From NCBI RefSeq assembly GCF_014876185.1, contig NZ_JADALJ010000001.1, positions 3,701,501 through 3,765,500 on the forward strand: DNA of 64,000 nt, given 5' to 3'. The first letter of the stretch is position 1; every line of letters starts with the position of its first letter. The position numbers were made by a program, and so were the translations under genes. Below the pieces are notes generated by a model that was not told the origin of the DNA, ran no database searches, and saw nothing but the letters and a program-made list of their open reading frames with translations. This document shows, one piece after another, positions 14,163 through 44,890 of the stretch. Source of the DNA: Rufibacter sp. LB8 (GTDB lineage: Bacteria > Bacteroidota > Bacteroidia > Cytophagales > Hymenobacteraceae).

Positions 14163-14260
14163 TATTTTGAAGTGGTGAAGGAGGGGTAGGCTTAGGTTTG
14201 CTCCTCCTTTATTATAATTGGCAGCGAAGCAGTAATTTCTAGCCATCTATATTCATTTTT

Positions 14261-14347
14261 TATCCTGGAAGGATCTAGGTGGCGTACTGTAGTGGCTTCT
14301 AGTAAGCGCTTTTCTAGCTTGCCCACAAAGTCCTTTCAGGATGATAG
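14261..14347. mobile_element. ORF-less miniature derivative of the GIY-YIG element
   Basis: TATCCTGGAAGGATCTAGGT at the left and CAAAGTCCTTTCAGGATGAT at the right form inverted arms around about 45 bases. Read on the minus strand, it continues with GGGCAAGCTAGAAAAGC, like the leader GGCAAGCTAGACAAGC of the GIY-YIG unit at 44407, and then with a piece resembling the 3' end of that unit. The GIY-YIG gene itself is missing. It occupies the sucB-lpd spacer. Confidence 0.6.
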
Positions 14348-14459
14348 AGGGGATGTGGGCTGATTTTGCAAAGAAGACCAAAACAGTGGGAGAGTAATTT
14401 TTCTACTGCCAACATAATTTTTGAAGAACGAGGAAATCCTTCCTCTTAAAAGAAAGAAC

Positions 14460-40298: not shown

Positions 40299-42701
40299 AT
40301 GAAGAGAATAATCAAGAAAGTGGCGGTCTTAGGCTCCGGAATCATGGGTTCCCGCATTGCCTGCCACTTCGCCAACATTGGGGTGCAGGTCCTGCTTCTG
40401 GACATGGTACCCCGCGAACTGCTACCCGAGGAACAGGCCAAAGGTCTGACCCTGGATAACAAGCCCGTTCGCAACAGAATTGTCAACGCGGCCCTGCAAA
40501 CGGCGGTTACCTCCAACCCATCGCCCCTTTATAAGAAAGAGGATGTGCGCCTGATCCAGACCGGTAACTTTGATGATGACTTAAAAGACATCGCCGGCTG
40601 TGACTGGACCATTGAAGTGGTGGTGGAGAACCTCAAAATCAAGCAGTCTATCTTAGAGAAGGTAGAGCAGTTCAGAAAGCCGGGCACCCTTATTACGTCT
40701 AACACCTCGGGTATTCCTATCCACTTGATGTTGGAAGGTCGCTCAGAAGATTTCCAGAAGCACTTCTGCGGAACCCACTTCTTTAACCCGCCGCGCTACC
40801 TCAAATTGTTGGAGATTATCCCCACTGACAAAACCGACCCAGAAATCACGGCCTTCTTATTAAAATATGGTGACCTGTTCTTAGGTAAAACAACTGTTCT
40901 AGCTAAAGACACGCCGGCGTTCATCGCCAACCGTGTGGGTATCTACGGCATCATGCAGGTCTTGCACGTGATGGAGAAACTGGGCTTGAACGTGGACGAG
41001 GTTGACCGCCTCACCGGTCCGGTGGTAGGTAGACCAAAATCGGCTACATTTAGAACCTCTGACTTGGTAGGTTTGGACACGCTTGCCAAAGTAGCGCAGG
41101 GCTTGTACCAAACCGGCGAGAACGATGAGAAGCGTGACCTGTTCCAACTGCCCGCTTACATCCAGCAGATGGTAGAGAAGAACTGGCTAGGCGACAAAAC
41201 CAAGCAGGGCTTCTACAAGAAAACCAAGAACGAGCAAGGCGCTACGGAGATTCTGACGCTGGACCTCAAAACCATGGAATACGGCCCTAAACAGAAGGTC
41301 AAATTCCAGAGCATGGAAATCCTGAAGCCCATTGAAGATTTGCGCAAGCGTCTTAAGGCCTTCAGCCAGGTGCAGGACAAAGCCGGTGATTTCTTCAGAG
41401 AGACATCGTATGGCTTGTTCCAATACGTGACCAACCGCATCCCTGAAATATCTGACGAACTGTATCGCATTGACGATGCCATGCGTGCCGGTTTCGGATG
41501 GGAACTAGGGCCGTTTGAGACCTGGGACATCTTTGGCGTACGCGAAACCGTGAGCGCCATGGAAGCCGCCGGTTACAAGCCTGCTGACTGGGTGTATGAG
41601 ATGCTGGAAGGCGGTCATGAGAGCTTCTACCGCAGCCAGAACAACCAGCGCCAGTACTATGACATTCCGTCTAAGACTTATAAAGTAATTCCGGGCACCG
41701 AGAGCTTCGTGCTATTAGATGTCTTGCGTGGCACCAACGTGGTTTGGAAAAACGCCGGTGCTTCATTAATTGACCTGGGCGATGGCATCCTGAACGTAGA
41801 GTTCCACACCAAAATGAATGCGCTGGGCTCAGAAGTGATTCAAGGCCTGATGAAAGGCGTGGATTTAGCCGAGCAGGACTTCAGAGGTTTGGTTGTAGGC
41901 AATGAAGCCGCCAACTTCTCGGCGGGTGCTAACCTAGGTTTGGTATTCATGTACGCCCTGGACCAAGAGTATGATGAGCTGAATCTGATGATTCGACAGT
42001 TCCAAAATGCCATGATGCGACTGCGCTACTCAGCTATTCCGGTAGTGGCCGCACCTCATGGTTTGACCTTGGGCGGGGGCTGTGAGCTTTGCCTCCACGC
42101 CGATCACGTGCAGGCCGCCGCTGAGACGTACATTGGCTTGGTGGAGTTTGGTGTAGGCTTAATCCCGGGCGGGGGTGGAACCAAAGAAATGACCTTGCGC
42201 ACCTCGGCTGAATATGAAGAAGGCGATACTGAGTACAACTCGCTCCGCAACGCATTCATGACCATTGGTACAGCCAAAGTTTCTACCTCGGCCGCAGAGG
42301 CTTATGATTTGAAATTCCTGCGCCGCGGCGATGGCATCACGCTCAACAACAACCGCCAGCTAGCCGAAGCCAAAGCCGCCGCTATTGCTTTGGCAGAAGC
42401 CGGTTACACCAAGCCAACGCCTAAGACCAACATCAAGGTACAAGGCCGTGGCGGATTGGGTATGTTCACGACCGGTGCTTACGCCATGCAGGTCGCTGGT
42501 TTCATCTCAGACCATGACCGCAAAATCTCTGAGAAGCTAGCCTACGTGATGTGCGGGGGTGACTTGTCCATGCCGTCTGAAGTTTCGGAACAATACCTGC
42601 TAGACCTGGAGCGCGAAGCCTTCCTGAGTTTAACGGGTGAGCGCAAGACCTTGGAGCGTATCAAAAGCATCTTGACCACGGGTAAACCGCTGAGGAATTA
42701 A
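40299..42701 (+). CDS. 3-hydroxyacyl-CoA dehydrogenase / enoyl-CoA hydratase fusion
   Basis: 800 residues. N-terminal NAD-binding domain VAVLGSGIMGSRIACHFANIG and HFFNPPRYLKLLEII of 3-hydroxyacyl-CoA dehydrogenases. The middle part has the dehydrogenase C-terminal domains (RVGIYGIMQVLHVMEKLGL, GFGWELGPFETWDIFG). The C-terminal crotonase domain (about 500-700) contains AAPHGLTLGGGCELCLHAD and GLVEFGVGLIPGGGGTKEM with the hydratase glutamates. It performs two beta-oxidation steps. The domain order, dehydrogenase first and hydratase last, is the reverse of FadB/FadJ, as is common in Bacteroidetes. It is followed by a GIY-YIG unit and then the thiolase gene. Confidence 0.93.
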   Translation: MKRIIKKVAVLGSGIMGSRIACHFANIGVQVLLLDMVPRELLPEEQAKGLTLDNKPVRNRIVNAALQTAVTSNPSPLYKKEDVRLIQTGNFDDDLKDIAGCDWTIEVVVENLKIKQSILEKVEQFRKPGTLITSNTSGIPIHLMLEGRSEDFQKHFCGTHFFNPPRYLKLLEIIPTDKTDPEITAFLLKYGDLFLGKTTVLAKDTPAFIANRVGIYGIMQVLHVMEKLGLNVDEVDRLTGPVVGRPKSATFRTSDLVGLDTLAKVAQGLYQTGENDEKRDLFQLPAYIQQMVEKNWLGDKTKQGFYKKTKNEQGATEILTLDLKTMEYGPKQKVKFQSMEILKPIEDLRKRLKAFSQVQDKAGDFFRETSYGLFQYVTNRIPEISDELYRIDDAMRAGFGWELGPFETWDIFGVRETVSAMEAAGYKPADWVYEMLEGGHESFYRSQNNQRQYYDIPSKTYKVIPGTESFVLLDVLRGTNVVWKNAGASLIDLGDGILNVEFHTKMNALGSEVIQGLMKGVDLAEQDFRGLVVGNEAANFSAGANLGLVFMYALDQEYDELNLMIRQFQNAMMRLRYSAIPVVAAPHGLTLGGGCELCLHADHVQAAAETYIGLVEFGVGLIPGGGGTKEMTLRTSAEYEEGDTEYNSLRNAFMTIGTAKVSTSAAEAYDLKFLRRGDGITLNNNRQLAEAKAAAIALAEAGYTKPTPKTNIKVQGRGGLGMFTTGAYAMQVAGFISDHDRKISEKLAYVMCGGDLSMPSEVSEQYLLDLEREAFLSLTGERKTLERIKSILTTGKPLRN

Positions 42702-42737: not shown

Positions 42738-43122
42738 CTTTGTCATCCTGAAAGGACCTTGTGGGCGAACTAGACAAGCAGAAGCTATGAAAGACCATAA
42801 CTACTTTGTCTACATCATTAGTAATCCTGGTAAGACGGTTCTTTATACTGGGGTTACTAATAATTTGGAAGTTCGCTTACAGCAACACAAAGAGAATCGT
42901 GGCCAAGCAGACACTTTCGCTGGTAAGTTTTACTGTTACAAATTGTTGTACTATGAACGGTATGCCAATGTAGAACAGGCCATTGAAAGGGAAAAGGAAA
43001 TAAAGTTACTAGGGCGAAAAGCGAAGGAGGAATTGATAAAGTCAATGAATCCAAAGATGAGCTTCTTGTACATAGCAAGCTGAGTTACAATTCGCCCACA
43101 AGGTCCTTTCAGGATGACAAAG
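42738..43122. mobile_element. GIY-YIG element 1 with perfect 32-bp terminal inverted repeats
   Basis: A 385-bp unit. Left arm 42738-42769 (starting CTTTGTCATCCTGAAAGGAC) and right arm 43091-43122 are perfect inverted copies, 32 of 32. The leader ACTAGACAAGCAGAAGCT lies directly before the ATG of the only gene. It sits in the spacer between the HADH/ECH and thiolase genes. Mobility is inferred from the second copy at 44407 and the remnant at 14261. Confidence 0.75.
42787..43083 (+). CDS. GIY-YIG family endonuclease-like protein (UPF0213 type)
   Basis: 98 residues, a single GIY-YIG domain. NYFVYI and LYTGVTNNLEVRLQQHK correspond to the GIY and YIG strands; Arg30, His34, Glu57 (YYER) and the EREKEIKLL helix match the conserved positions of the family. 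Stand-alone UPF0213/YhbQ-type proteins have this size. The gene is encoded inside an inverted-repeat unit, which makes it the candidate mobility or maintenance protein of that unit. By hand alignment 65 of 98 residues are identical to the product of 44461-44757. Confidence 0.88.
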   Translation: MKDHNYFVYIISNPGKTVLYTGVTNNLEVRLQQHKENRGQADTFAGKFYCYKLLYYERYANVEQAIEREKEIKLLGRKAKEELIKSMNPKMSFLYIAS

Positions 43123-43162: not shown

Positions 43163-44341
43163 ATGCAAACTGCCTATATAGTTGCCGGATTCAGAAGTGC
43201 AGTGGGGAAAGCGCCCCGCGGCGTGTTCCGTTTCACCCGGCCAGATGATTTGGCCGCCGATGTCATCAAGCATTTGCTGGCATCGGTGCCACAACTAGAC
43301 CCCGCCCGCGTAGATGACCTTTTGGTGGGCAACGCGGTGCCTGAGGCTGAGCAAGGGCTTCAGATGGGACGCATGATTTCCCTCCTGTCTTTGCCCATCA
43401 ACGTGCCCGGTGCCATCATGAACCGTTACTGCGGGTCTGGGATTGAGACCATCGCTACCGCCGCCTTCAAAATACAAGCCGGCATGGCCGACTGTATCAT
43501 TGCCGGTGGTGCCGAGTCGATGAGCATGGTGCCCGTGATTGGCTGGAAAACCGTGCCTAACTACAAGATCGCCAAGGAGCATCCAGAGTATTACCTGAGC
43601 ATGGGCTTAACGGCAGAGGCCGTGGCCAATGACTTTAAAGTAAGCCGCGAAGACCAGGATGCTTTTGCCTACGCTTCGCACCAGAAAGCCATCAGAGCCA
43701 TTGAAGAAGGCCGGTTCAAGGACCAGATTGTGCCCATCAATGTAGAAGAGACCTACTTGGATGAGAACGGCAAGAAGAAAACCCGCTCCTACGTGGTAGA
43801 CACAGATGAAGGCCCGCGTGCTGATACCTCTGTGGAGAAACTAGCCAAGTTGCGTCCGGTATTTGCCACTAATGGTTCGGTGACGGCCGGTAACTCCTCG
43901 CAGACCTCAGACGGGGCCGCCTTCACTATTGTGATGAGTGAGCGCATGGTCAAAGAACTGAACCTGGAGCCTATTGCCCGTTTGGTGTCTTATGCCGCCG
44001 AAGGCGTGGACCCACGCATCATGGGCATGGGCCCTGTAAAAGCCATCCCGAAGGCCTTGAAAAACGCCGGCATGAGCTTGCAGGACGTGGACCTGTTTGA
44101 ATTGAACGAGGCCTTCGCTTCTCAATCCATTGCGGTCATCAGAGAACTAGGCATTGACCCAGAGAAAGTTAACCCGAACGGAGGCGCCATTGCCTTGGGT
44201 CACCCGCTGGGTTGCTCCGGCGCTAAATTGAGCGTTCAGCTTTTCAATGAGCTTCGTCGTCAGAACAAGAAGTACGGAATGGTCACTGCCTGCGTAGGTG
44301 GTGGCCAAGGCGTAGCCGGTATTTATGAGTTGCTTAAATAG
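43163..44341 (+). CDS. acetyl-CoA acyltransferase (thiolase)
   Basis: 392 residues, the family length. Active-site Cys in MNRYCGSGIETIATAA, then AGGAESMSMVPVIGWK, GNSSQTSDGAA, NEAFASQSIAVIRELG, GGAIALGHPLGCSGAKL (catalytic His) and TACVGGGQGVAGIYE (second Cys). It cleaves 3-ketoacyl-CoA into acetyl-CoA and a shortened acyl-CoA, the last beta-oxidation step. It lies between two GIY-YIG units and is probably part of the same transcript as the HADH/ECH fusion and the acyl-CoA dehydrogenase. Confidence 0.95.
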   Translation: MQTAYIVAGFRSAVGKAPRGVFRFTRPDDLAADVIKHLLASVPQLDPARVDDLLVGNAVPEAEQGLQMGRMISLLSLPINVPGAIMNRYCGSGIETIATAAFKIQAGMADCIIAGGAESMSMVPVIGWKTVPNYKIAKEHPEYYLSMGLTAEAVANDFKVSREDQDAFAYASHQKAIRAIEEGRFKDQIVPINVEETYLDENGKKKTRSYVVDTDEGPRADTSVEKLAKLRPVFATNGSVTAGNSSQTSDGAAFTIVMSERMVKELNLEPIARLVSYAAEGVDPRIMGMGPVKAIPKALKNAGMSLQDVDLFELNEAFASQSIAVIRELGIDPEKVNPNGGAIALGHPLGCSGAKLSVQLFNELRRQNKKYGMVTACVGGGQGVAGIYELLK

Positions 44342-44370
44342 TATCAAGTAGCAGGTATCAGGTAGCAAGA
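44342..44370 (+). repeat. solo arm of the GTAGCAA/GTATCAG periodic family
   Basis: TATCAAGTAGCAGGTATCAG and GTAGCAAG directly follow the thiolase stop, 36 bases before GIY-YIG element 2. Confidence 0.5.
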
Positions 44371-44406
44371 ATAAAGTTGGCTGGCAGAATCTACTAAGTT
44401 CTGCCT

Positions 44407-44801
44407 CCCTTCTTTGTCATCCTGAAAGGATCTCGGAGGCAAGCTAGACAAGCAGAAGCTATGAAACAGCATAATTACTTTGTCTACATCACGTCAAATC
44501 CAACAAAGACCGTTTTCTACGTGGGCATGACCAATGATTTGGACAGAAGGCTGTTTGAACACCGAGAGAATAGAGGCAAGCCAGAGACGTTTGCCGGGAA
44601 ATACTACTGCTACAAACTACTTTACTATGAACGGTTTACGTACGTGCAACACGCCATAGAGACAGAAAAGGAATTGAAGCTATTAAACAGAGAAGAGAAA
44701 GTTGCTTTGGTCAAAACGATGAATCCAAAGATGGTTTTTCTGACAATAGCTGACTGAGTTACAGTTCGCCACCGAGATCCTTTCAGGATGACAAAGAAGG
44801 G
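44407..44801. mobile_element. GIY-YIG element 2 with 34-bp terminal inverted repeats
   Basis: A 395-bp unit. Left arm 44407-44440 and right arm 44768-44801 match at 33 of 34 positions. The outer CTTTGTCATCCTGAAAGGA is shared with element 1. The inner half differs from element 1 (TCTCGG instead of CCTTGTG) but is matched between the two arms of this unit. Spacer between the thiolase and acyl-CoA dehydrogenase genes. Confidence 0.75.
44461..44757 (+). CDS. GIY-YIG family endonuclease-like protein (UPF0213 type)
   Basis: 98 residues, paralogue of the 42787-43083 product with the same length. NYFVYI, FYVGMTNDLDRRLFEH, Arg30, His34 and Glu57 (YYER) are kept, and TFAGKYYCYKLLYYER is almost unchanged. 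The strongest divergence lies in residues 21-40 and in the last third. All key positions remain, so both copies could be active; neither shows decay. Encoded alone between the inverted repeats of element 2. Confidence 0.88.
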   Translation: MKQHNYFVYITSNPTKTVFYVGMTNDLDRRLFEHRENRGKPETFAGKYYCYKLLYYERFTYVQHAIETEKELKLLNREEKVALVKTMNPKMVFLTIAD

Positions 44802-44890
44802 ATGAAGTAACAGTAGATTGACTGCCACTAGGTGAGTCAATCAGTATGAAAAGTCTAAAATCTAACTACTAGAATCTAGCACCTAACAAT

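Follow-up and report, generated by a model that had tools for sequence, protein, structure and literature searches.

A stretch of 64,000 nucleotides from Rufibacter sp. LB8 (the window) contains a small GIY-YIG nuclease gene between two inverted repeats. This unit is probably the gene-bearing form of a REP-like repeat family, with the 98-residue GIY-YIG protein as the dedicated nuclease of that family. The association of the gene with tagged hairpins is well supported; we infer that the protein would cleave these hairpins and spread them. As judged from sequence comparison, gene and repeats co-occur across genera and phyla, and arms, dispersed repeats and protein type match one another. By the same comparison, orthologous sites may have the unit, lack it, or hold a broken one or one of the other type. 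Of the two readings in the original prediction, a minimal transposon and a RAYT/REP-like system that uses another nuclease, the latter fits, since the arms are dispersed REP-like hairpins.

Unit 1 starts with the left arm at 42738-42769 (plus strand), a GTC-tagged hairpin repeat with the tag GTC at 42742-42744, a TCCT/AGGA stem at 42746-42756, a GAA loop and the tail CCTTGTGGGCGAA. An inner part of the left repeat (CTAGACAAGCAGAAGCT, 42770-42786, plus strand) reaches the start codon of gene 1, and the similar AACTAGAxAAGC is present in many dispersed repeat copies. GIY-YIG nuclease gene 1 (42787-43083, plus strand) encodes 98 amino acids. The right arm at 43091-43122 is the hairpin repeat inverted, with its tag GTC at 43118-43116 on the minus strand. 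Exact 32-bp inverted arms around one 98-residue GIY-YIG gene, starting 17 bases after the left arm and set between two genes without damage, had been described in the original prediction, and all of this was confirmed. The arms are 32 nt each, 100% complementary and separated by 321 nt; the Pfam match of protein 1 to GIY-YIG has an E value of 5.9e-15; and the flanking frames, of which the one before the unit (800 aa) ends at 42701 and the one after it (392 aa) begins at 43163, are both unbroken. These neighbours are presumably HADH/ECH and thiolase, as named in the original prediction and by sequence recognition.

Beyond that description, a second unit, a dispersed arm family and a conserved repeat longer than 32 nt were found. 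Unit 2 lies in the spacer next to that of unit 1. Its left arm (44401-44445, plus strand) holds TTTGTCATCCTGAAAGGA at 44413-44430 and the tail TCTCGGAGGCAAGCT, and its right arm (44763-44807, minus strand) has the minus-strand core at 44795-44778; the 45-nt arms are 89% complementary. GIY-YIG nuclease gene 2 (44461-44757, plus strand) encodes 98 amino acids, 67% identical to gene 1. The 18-mer TTTGTCATCCTGAAAGGA recurs in the window more often than by chance, with 6 occurrences at up to 3 mismatches versus 0.04 expected. A probable decayed pair of the unit 1 arm repeat without a gene was located at 14256-14348 (no strand assigned), with 3 mismatches at 14256-14273 (plus) and 2 at 14348-14331 (minus). 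Only two small GIY-YIG genes of this kind were found in the 4.75-Mb genome (E up to 0.01). The PF01541 search of this genome added only genes in frames of 601 and 467 aa, which we take from sequence recognition to be UvrC and a Pol III epsilon-type exonuclease. No copy of the arm repeat was found within 400 bp of UvrC or of the 464-aa GIY-YIG ORF.

The distribution of the arm repeat in the whole genome was investigated with the pattern GTCATCCTGAN{0,12}AAGGA. It gave 81 matches; the reversed control pattern gave 0. The matches comprised 59 short-loop copies (GTCATCCTGAAAGGA followed by a conserved tail), the kind that forms the arms of unit 1, and 22 longer-loop copies, at least one of which, in L111, perhaps matched by chance within a coding frame. 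The expectation that the arm would have many copies was thus borne out by the 59 dispersed short-loop copies. The short-loop repeat showed a sharp start at TTTGTC, conservation to about +37 and fading about 40-45 nt inside. Outside ORFs of at least 100 aa lay 56 of the 59 short-loop and 15 of the 22 long-loop copies; among 500 random window positions taken as control, 429 fell inside such ORFs. Nine facing short-loop pairs were found, all head-to-head, with start spacings of 72, 72, 73, 124, 154, 201, 362, 362 and 727, and the two pairs spaced 362 enclose GIY-YIG genes 1 and 2. Most copies in this genome are single. By a loose pattern, the tails of the 59 copies were assigned as 34 GTGGGC (the gene-1 kind), 20 GGTGGC-like (the gene-2 kind) and 5 neither. 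Each of the two nucleases in this genome has its own arm subtype, and most of the dispersed repeats can be assigned to one of these subtypes. Among the 22 long-loop copies of this genome, no inverted pairs and no matching gene were found. This long-loop GTC-tagged repeat is GTCATCCTGAGCYTGTCGAAGGATCTAACGAAGAT (for example in L003, L024 and L104), and a gene with similar long-loop arms is present in G021 (L286).

The flanks of related genes were investigated in Bacteroidota. A protein match (E up to 1e-5) was present in 36 of 58 relatives, or 37 of 59 genomes with the own genome. Flanks were inspected for 61 of the 82 match rows; these come from 33 genomes, among them the own one. Left out were 21 rows, namely fragments, matches of lower strength and one strong, intact row (G027:C1:5479671), the position of which is bracketed by repeats. 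In a ranking made without assuming the tag, GTC was the first of 64 tags before a 5-bp stem on both sides, with 21 units (next 3, median 0). Among 1024 5-mers, GTCAT ranked first for occurrence on both sides in the sense facing the gene, with 42 of 61 units (median 2), and an inverted GTCAT pair in either sense occurred in 47 of 61. With a perfect 6-bp stem required, GTC ranked far from the top, since the stem in Bacteroidota has 5 bp; the 5-bp version reported here was run afterwards. A perfect 5-bp stem beginning with AT was present in 55 of 122 arms, with eight different stems. No inverted GTCAT pair was seen in the inspected flanks of 14 of the 61 units, of which G018a, G035a and G006 keep matching arms or tails. 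The repeat was on one side only in G025b and G020b, the G052 unit runs into a contig end, and none of the three G045 units had an inverted GTCAT pair in the flanks inspected. A second set held 29 loci of the phylum, drawn as best-scoring matches and not at random from 296 sampled genomes, 172 of which matched at 1e-12. Here too GTCAT came first (18 of 29) and GTC was the first tag (10 on both sides).

The arms matched each other and the protein. The same stem occurred on both sides in 21 of 21 units, with 4.1 expected and a maximum of 12 in 10000 shuffles, and the partner of a foreign stem was found in 0 of 2502 swaps. Among the 46 units (of 61) whose left arm could be used, arm similarity followed protein similarity with a Mantel r of 0.71; 0 of 2000 permutations reached this value, the maximum being 0.21. 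Within the genus, the arm tail tracked the paralog and not the species. Among the 12 of 13 genus units listed, five of gene-1 type had CTTGTGGGC arms and six of gene-2 type had CTYGG arms (CTYGGTGGC, CTCGGTAAC, CTCGGAGGC). The G012 protein, with similarities of 0.78 and 0.75 to the gene-1 and gene-2 types, had one arm of each kind. The thirteenth unit, G007b, agreed with the match of arm and paralog. The inner tails differed consistently in the genus, being AACTAGAC-like on the left and AACTGTAA- or AACGGTAA-like on the right.

That the arm type tracks the nuclease type argues against a passenger role, in which a nuclease with another job (e.g., repair) is carried between repeats moved by, for example, a RAYT. 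Such a role is very improbable, even if it agrees with the persistence of repeats without the gene and with the six Y1-transposase (PF01797) matches in the own genome (L264-L269). Four of these matches have clear inverted repeats of other sequence (e.g., GAATGGGTTTTAACCCATTC, GGACAGGTCGCGACCTGTCC) and two have little or none, and a RAYT of the own genome was rejected as the partner of the repeat on this ground. The pattern GTCATCCTGA..AAGGA, which was the one scanned, did not occur within 400 bp of any of the six. A different small gene, of the 23S_rRNA_IVP family, carries quite different repeats at the thiolase-ACAD spacer of relatives, and Di Nocera et al. 2013 (PMC3733652) report that no RAYT/IS200 gene has CGTC units at its flanks. 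In this genome, RAYT-like systems may exist alongside the GIY-YIG system.

Other genera had their own repeats. GTCATTCAGRAGGAANCT is one arm type of the units of genus g4 (G018, G027, G031, G035); it had 11-221 copies in each of the 5 g4 genomes searched, and none was found in 15 others. In G031, 30 of the 42 copies listed formed pairs 37 bp apart, and G023 had 21 copies of the g4 repeat and no gene match. GTCATGTCGA..GACATC, one arm type in g5 (G019, G032, G036), had 7-156 copies in the 5 g5 genomes searched, 73 in G025, 2 in G020 and none in the other 13. In G025, exceptionally, the two genes examined have flanks other than this 73-copy repeat. Repeat hits without a gene match were found in six genomes of the family (33 in G004, 13 in G005, 43 in G008, 62 in G013, 9 in G023 and 28 in G029), with both loop types pooled in these counts. 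The repeats therefore persist without needing the gene, and a prediction of repeat number from gene presence was not supported.

The hairpin structure was investigated with 26 distinct 25-nt forms of the g5 repeat among the matches listed, obtained with a search pattern that left the inner stem free. In the inner stem, 92.3% of cells were paired versus 66.8% in shuffled forms, and 13 double changes were counted versus 2.9; 0 of 500 shuffles reached either value. Slid versions of this stem paired in 14-50%. The same picture was given by a set of 29 hairpins with four more outer stems, which was hand-selected (six for different outer stems, three listed forms omitted), so that the count of 26 forms is the one relied on. 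The diversity of pair types was not above shuffles (458 of 500 for the 26 forms, 468 of 500 for the 29 hairpins), and a GA/GA step in the stem was invariant in both sets. To judge by these forms, the hairpins change by compensation. The window arm folded alone as a single strand was not more stable than shuffled sequence (z -0.07). Of six arms folded, only the S. meliloti type exceeded shuffles (z -4.74), the five others giving z values of -0.84 to 0.27, and the predicted fold of the g5 arm differed from the expected hairpin.

Orthologous spacers were compared in 16 genomes of the genus, including the own one. At the HADH-thiolase spacer (spacer 1), a unit was present in 8 of 16 genomes and absent in 8, so that sites without the unit, counted as support in the original prediction, do exist, in spacers too diverged to show an exact empty site. 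The units at this spacer were those of the window, G010, G003, G012 and G009 (broken), with the gene-2 type in G001, G002 and G011. At the thiolase-ACAD spacer (spacer 2), gene 2 was found in three genomes (that of the window, G007 and G015) and a broken gene-1 type in G012. This spacer held a different small gene with unrelated inverted repeats in 7 genomes, and was short in the remaining 5 (18 bp in 4, 110 bp in 1). The small gene was identified as 23S_rRNA_IVP (PF05635; Pfam E 4.1e-40) in the one scanned of the 7, and the other six resemble it by eye. One repeat pair of the own genome, adjoining a RidA-like gene, was absent in 13 of 13 relatives examined.

If this were simply a conserved gene whose flanking stem-loops serve as terminators, all relatives would have the unit at this locus and further copies would be missing; this pattern was looked for and was not observed. 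The hairpins at both gene ends are the one feature in favour of such a gene. Half of the 16 genus genomes have no unit at the site, the repeats are dispersed, and terminator or known RNA was rejected for the arms, where no terminator-like and no Rfam match was found. With the unit absent in relatives and copies dispersed, this explanation is refuted, and we assign it almost no probability.

Several further observations were made at these sites. The IVP-type loci are L115 (1082-1453) and spacer 2 of L117, L118, L120, L121, L125 and L128. The IVP gene is flanked by inverted, tandem-like repeats (GTCTTGAGTCTTACGTC... or GATACTTGATACACGATAC...), and a short pattern of one kind of these had 1-12 occurrences in 9 of 16 genus genomes. 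A possible remnant lies at window positions 44339-44372. The 23S_rRNA_IVP gene and its flanks are possibly another gene-plus-intergenic-repeat system. The G012 unit at spacer 1 (L067 / L122), with a protein about equally like both types and one arm of each, looks chimeric, which suggests recombination between the gene-1 and gene-2 systems. The RidA-adjacent spacer (L237, L240, L246, L248) holds long inverted arrays of degenerate units (gagatggggagatttg, gagtgaatgaatgag, gtgctgatgtgctaa), which differ between species.

Recent copies were compared in 20 stretches from 6 genomes. G130 contained two gene-plus-arms copies 6.5 kb apart, which agree in 99.3% of 417 bp and lie in different surroundings. 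On the right, the block that they share stops three bases past the tag; on the left, its edge falls within an array of the same repeats; both transposition and recombination are therefore possible. The G143 pair was 91.7% identical over 420 bp and the tandem copies of G123 91-94%; others were lower. G348, G204, G123, G199 and G290 had 11-14 matches to the GIY-YIG gene, and in several Bacteroidota genomes some of the matches were at contig ends, as expected of multicopy elements.

A minimal self-mobile transposon, in which the gene and two terminal inverted repeats move together and single repeats or pairs are deletion derivatives (MITEs), could produce the near-identical copy in G130, the up to 14 gene matches in one genome (G348) and the units missing at orthologous spacers. 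The consistent difference between left and right inner tails in the genus would also resemble distinct ends. However, the own genome has two gene copies versus 59 repeats, as in RAYT/REP, and the G130 twin, 6.5 kb away in arrays of the same repeat, is explained equally by recombination. No target duplication was seen in a comparison with unit-less spacers that are heavily diverged, and the protein has no known transposase domain (Pfam). A transposon of this kind is therefore unlikely. The gene-bearing REP-like unit was further examined outside Bacteroidota.

A tblastn search in PLSDB gave 26 records, and the flanks were inspected in 16. Tagged hairpins were present on both sides of the gene in 11 of the 16: S. 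meliloti, Rhizobium, two Shinella, Neorhizobium, Azospirillum lipoferum (where the gene is located between sufB and sufC), Sphingobium, Aeromonas, N. gonorrhoeae, Spirosoma and Planktothrix. The N. gonorrhoeae repeats are presumably of the dRS3 kind. The hairpin arms of Novosphingobium and Sinorhizobium K101 had an altered form, and Photobacterium had one repeat, 178 bp from the gene. No tagged hairpins were found in the flanks of the Arsenophonus gene and the YazA-like Radiobacillus gene. In 80 rhizobial and related alphaproteobacterial loci, strict hairpins (7 bp, tag GTC, within 200 bp) preceded the gene in 41 loci, followed it in 34 and stood at both ends in 26 of 79, with a background of 8 in 218 windows. 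Among 28 listed loci without strict hairpins, several had decayed, outward or one-sided repeats and several had none within 110 bp. In one group of Rhizobium loci, L167, L175, L181 and L182 had a single outward upstream repeat, and L168, L170 and L171 had no repeat within 110 bp.

Variation between related sites was found as well. Repeats varied in presence or length at the RidA spacer, on S. medicae plasmids and at Rhizobium pcaQ-pcaD; no clean junction was seen at these places. At the gltA-lpxB site, S. meliloti Ak57 has gene and repeats, and Sinorhizobium sp. K101 has the repeats without the gene, with flanks about 95% identical. A second copy of the GIY-YIG 3' part with the right repeat, 89% identical, is present in Ak57 (L132, 500-767 / 996-1261); this duplication is array-like. 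The K101 repeats without the gene are what a free-standing homing endonuclease would leave if it cut gene-less repeat pairs and repair copied the gene in; they are equally explained by gene loss. Homing would also suit the gene-1 and gene-2 types at the same spacer in different species and the weak similarity, under the cut-off of the model, to group I intron endonucleases. It does not explain the spread of the repeats to many gene-less sites, and genomes exist with repeats and no gene match. Homing into the repeats is thus improbable.

The protein was compared with known folds. The predicted structure of protein 1 showed a GIY-YIG fold (pLDDT 93.3). Y9, Y20, G22, R30, H34, E69, N88 and P89 were invariant in 28 aligned proteins, and the conserved Tyr, Tyr, Arg, Glu and Asn of the GIY-YIG superfamily, residues of known roles, are present. 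Pfam gave GIY-YIG only for protein 1 and GIY-YIG with a weak T5orf172 for protein 2; no DDE, HUH (Y1, PF01797), serine or tyrosine transposase domain was found by Pfam in either. In a VIA-align comparison restricted to the candidates of Foldseek itself, the Z values were modest, with the top rows tied: Slx1 7.4 (rmsd 2.9 over 90 residues), UPF0213 BH0048 7.1, HIGLE 6.9, I-TevI 5.8 and UvrC 5.7. In Foldseek, only BH0048 was under an E value of 0.001 (8e-4), and Slx1 had 0.03. By sequence, the nearest solved relative was UPF0213 (1zg2, E 3.7e-5). Since Slx1 acts on branched DNA according to its entry titles, an extruded hairpin would be a reasonable substrate.

We propose the GIY-YIG nucleases as partner of the CGTC/TGTC-tagged REPs, RAYT-like in working and unrelated to RAYTs. 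Gene and repeat change together, and their pairing is found again in many bacteria; the nuclease therefore looks like the partner enzyme that a large class of bacterial repeats has been missing. The protein would recognise the GTC-tagged hairpin, single-stranded or extruded as a cruciform, as RAYTs do GTAG-tagged REPs, and would cut at or beside the GTC tag. Host repair could then copy the repeat pair into the break, either together with the gene or alone; alternatively, the cut pair might be released and re-inserted. GIY-YIG enzymes are hydrolytic nucleases, so re-joining of the strands would need host ligation or recombination. Cutting with repair or re-insertion would multiply the repeat pairs and homogenise the arms, and the gene-less inverted pairs would be a small non-autonomous form. 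More broadly, and more tentatively, small GIY-YIG proteins may form a second class of REP-mobilising enzymes that evolved independently, the partner of CGTC-REPs in Bacteroidota, Proteobacteria and Cyanobacteria, which would spread tagged hairpins by cutting and without a transposase. If so, REP biology would have two unrelated enzyme classes that converged on a tagged hairpin, a low-copy gene and intergenic pairs. Genes annotated merely as 'GIY-YIG nuclease family protein' would gain a possible function, and a hydrolytic nuclease of some 100 residues would drive DNA mobility with no transposase involved. With a 98-residue candidate enzyme and two matched repeat types in one genome, the partner question is directly testable.

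Among known systems, UPF0213 (YhbQ-YazA) is similar in size and fold. The one example inspected, from Radiobacillus, differs in lying between methyltransferase genes without repeats and in the absence of the C-terminal NP..W/DL part of the repeat-linked proteins. Slx1, which is eukaryotic and has the partner Slx4, was at the top in VIA-align and acts on branched DNA (entry title), but its Foldseek E value was only 0.03, and we know of no link of Slx1 to repeats. Homing endonucleases of the I-TevI type share the catalytic domain (Z 5.8 to I-TevI). Unlike these, the gene here is intergenic between intact ORFs and flanked by dispersed hairpins, no intron or intein was seen, and 98 residues leave no space for a separate DNA-binding tail. 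IS elements and MITEs share the terminal inverted repeats, but no DDE, HUH, serine or tyrosine transposase was found in the unit.

The RAYT/REP system is alike in the low-copy enzyme gene between inverted copies of a dispersed, intergenic, tagged hairpin, in the partly inverted pairs (REPINs) and in the match of enzyme type with repeat type. It differs in that the enzyme here is a GIY-YIG nuclease and not Y1/HUH, and the tag is GTC and not GTAG. No paper on the pairing of GIY-YIG with REP or hairpin repeats was found among the open-access titles and abstracts listed. A word search of RepRanger 2025 (PMC12306157) gave no mention of RAYT, nuclease or transposase. In PMC3733652, REPs are split into GTAG and CGTC superfamilies, with RAYTs belonging to GTAG. 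The CGTC-tagged REPs seem there to be without a dedicated transposase, a lack for which extinction or the use of borrowed transposases is suggested. They are placed in five phyla, most often in Alphaproteobacteria, and those of Neisseria are equated with dRS3. The definition given there (stem 8-9 bp, loop 4-5, tail CCA) fits many alphaproteobacterial arms, whereas the window arms have 4-5 bp, 3 nt and TCT/CCT. By their shorter stem and other tail, the window repeats are filed, on that definition, as a relative of the CGTC REPs and not as a member of the four families. They share with these the unpaired TGTC/CGTC tag, the AT stem start and the head-to-head pairs. The gene is flanked on both sides by such repeats in the S. 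meliloti, A. lipoferum and Neisseria records, and all three are named as CGTC-REP hosts in PMC3733652.
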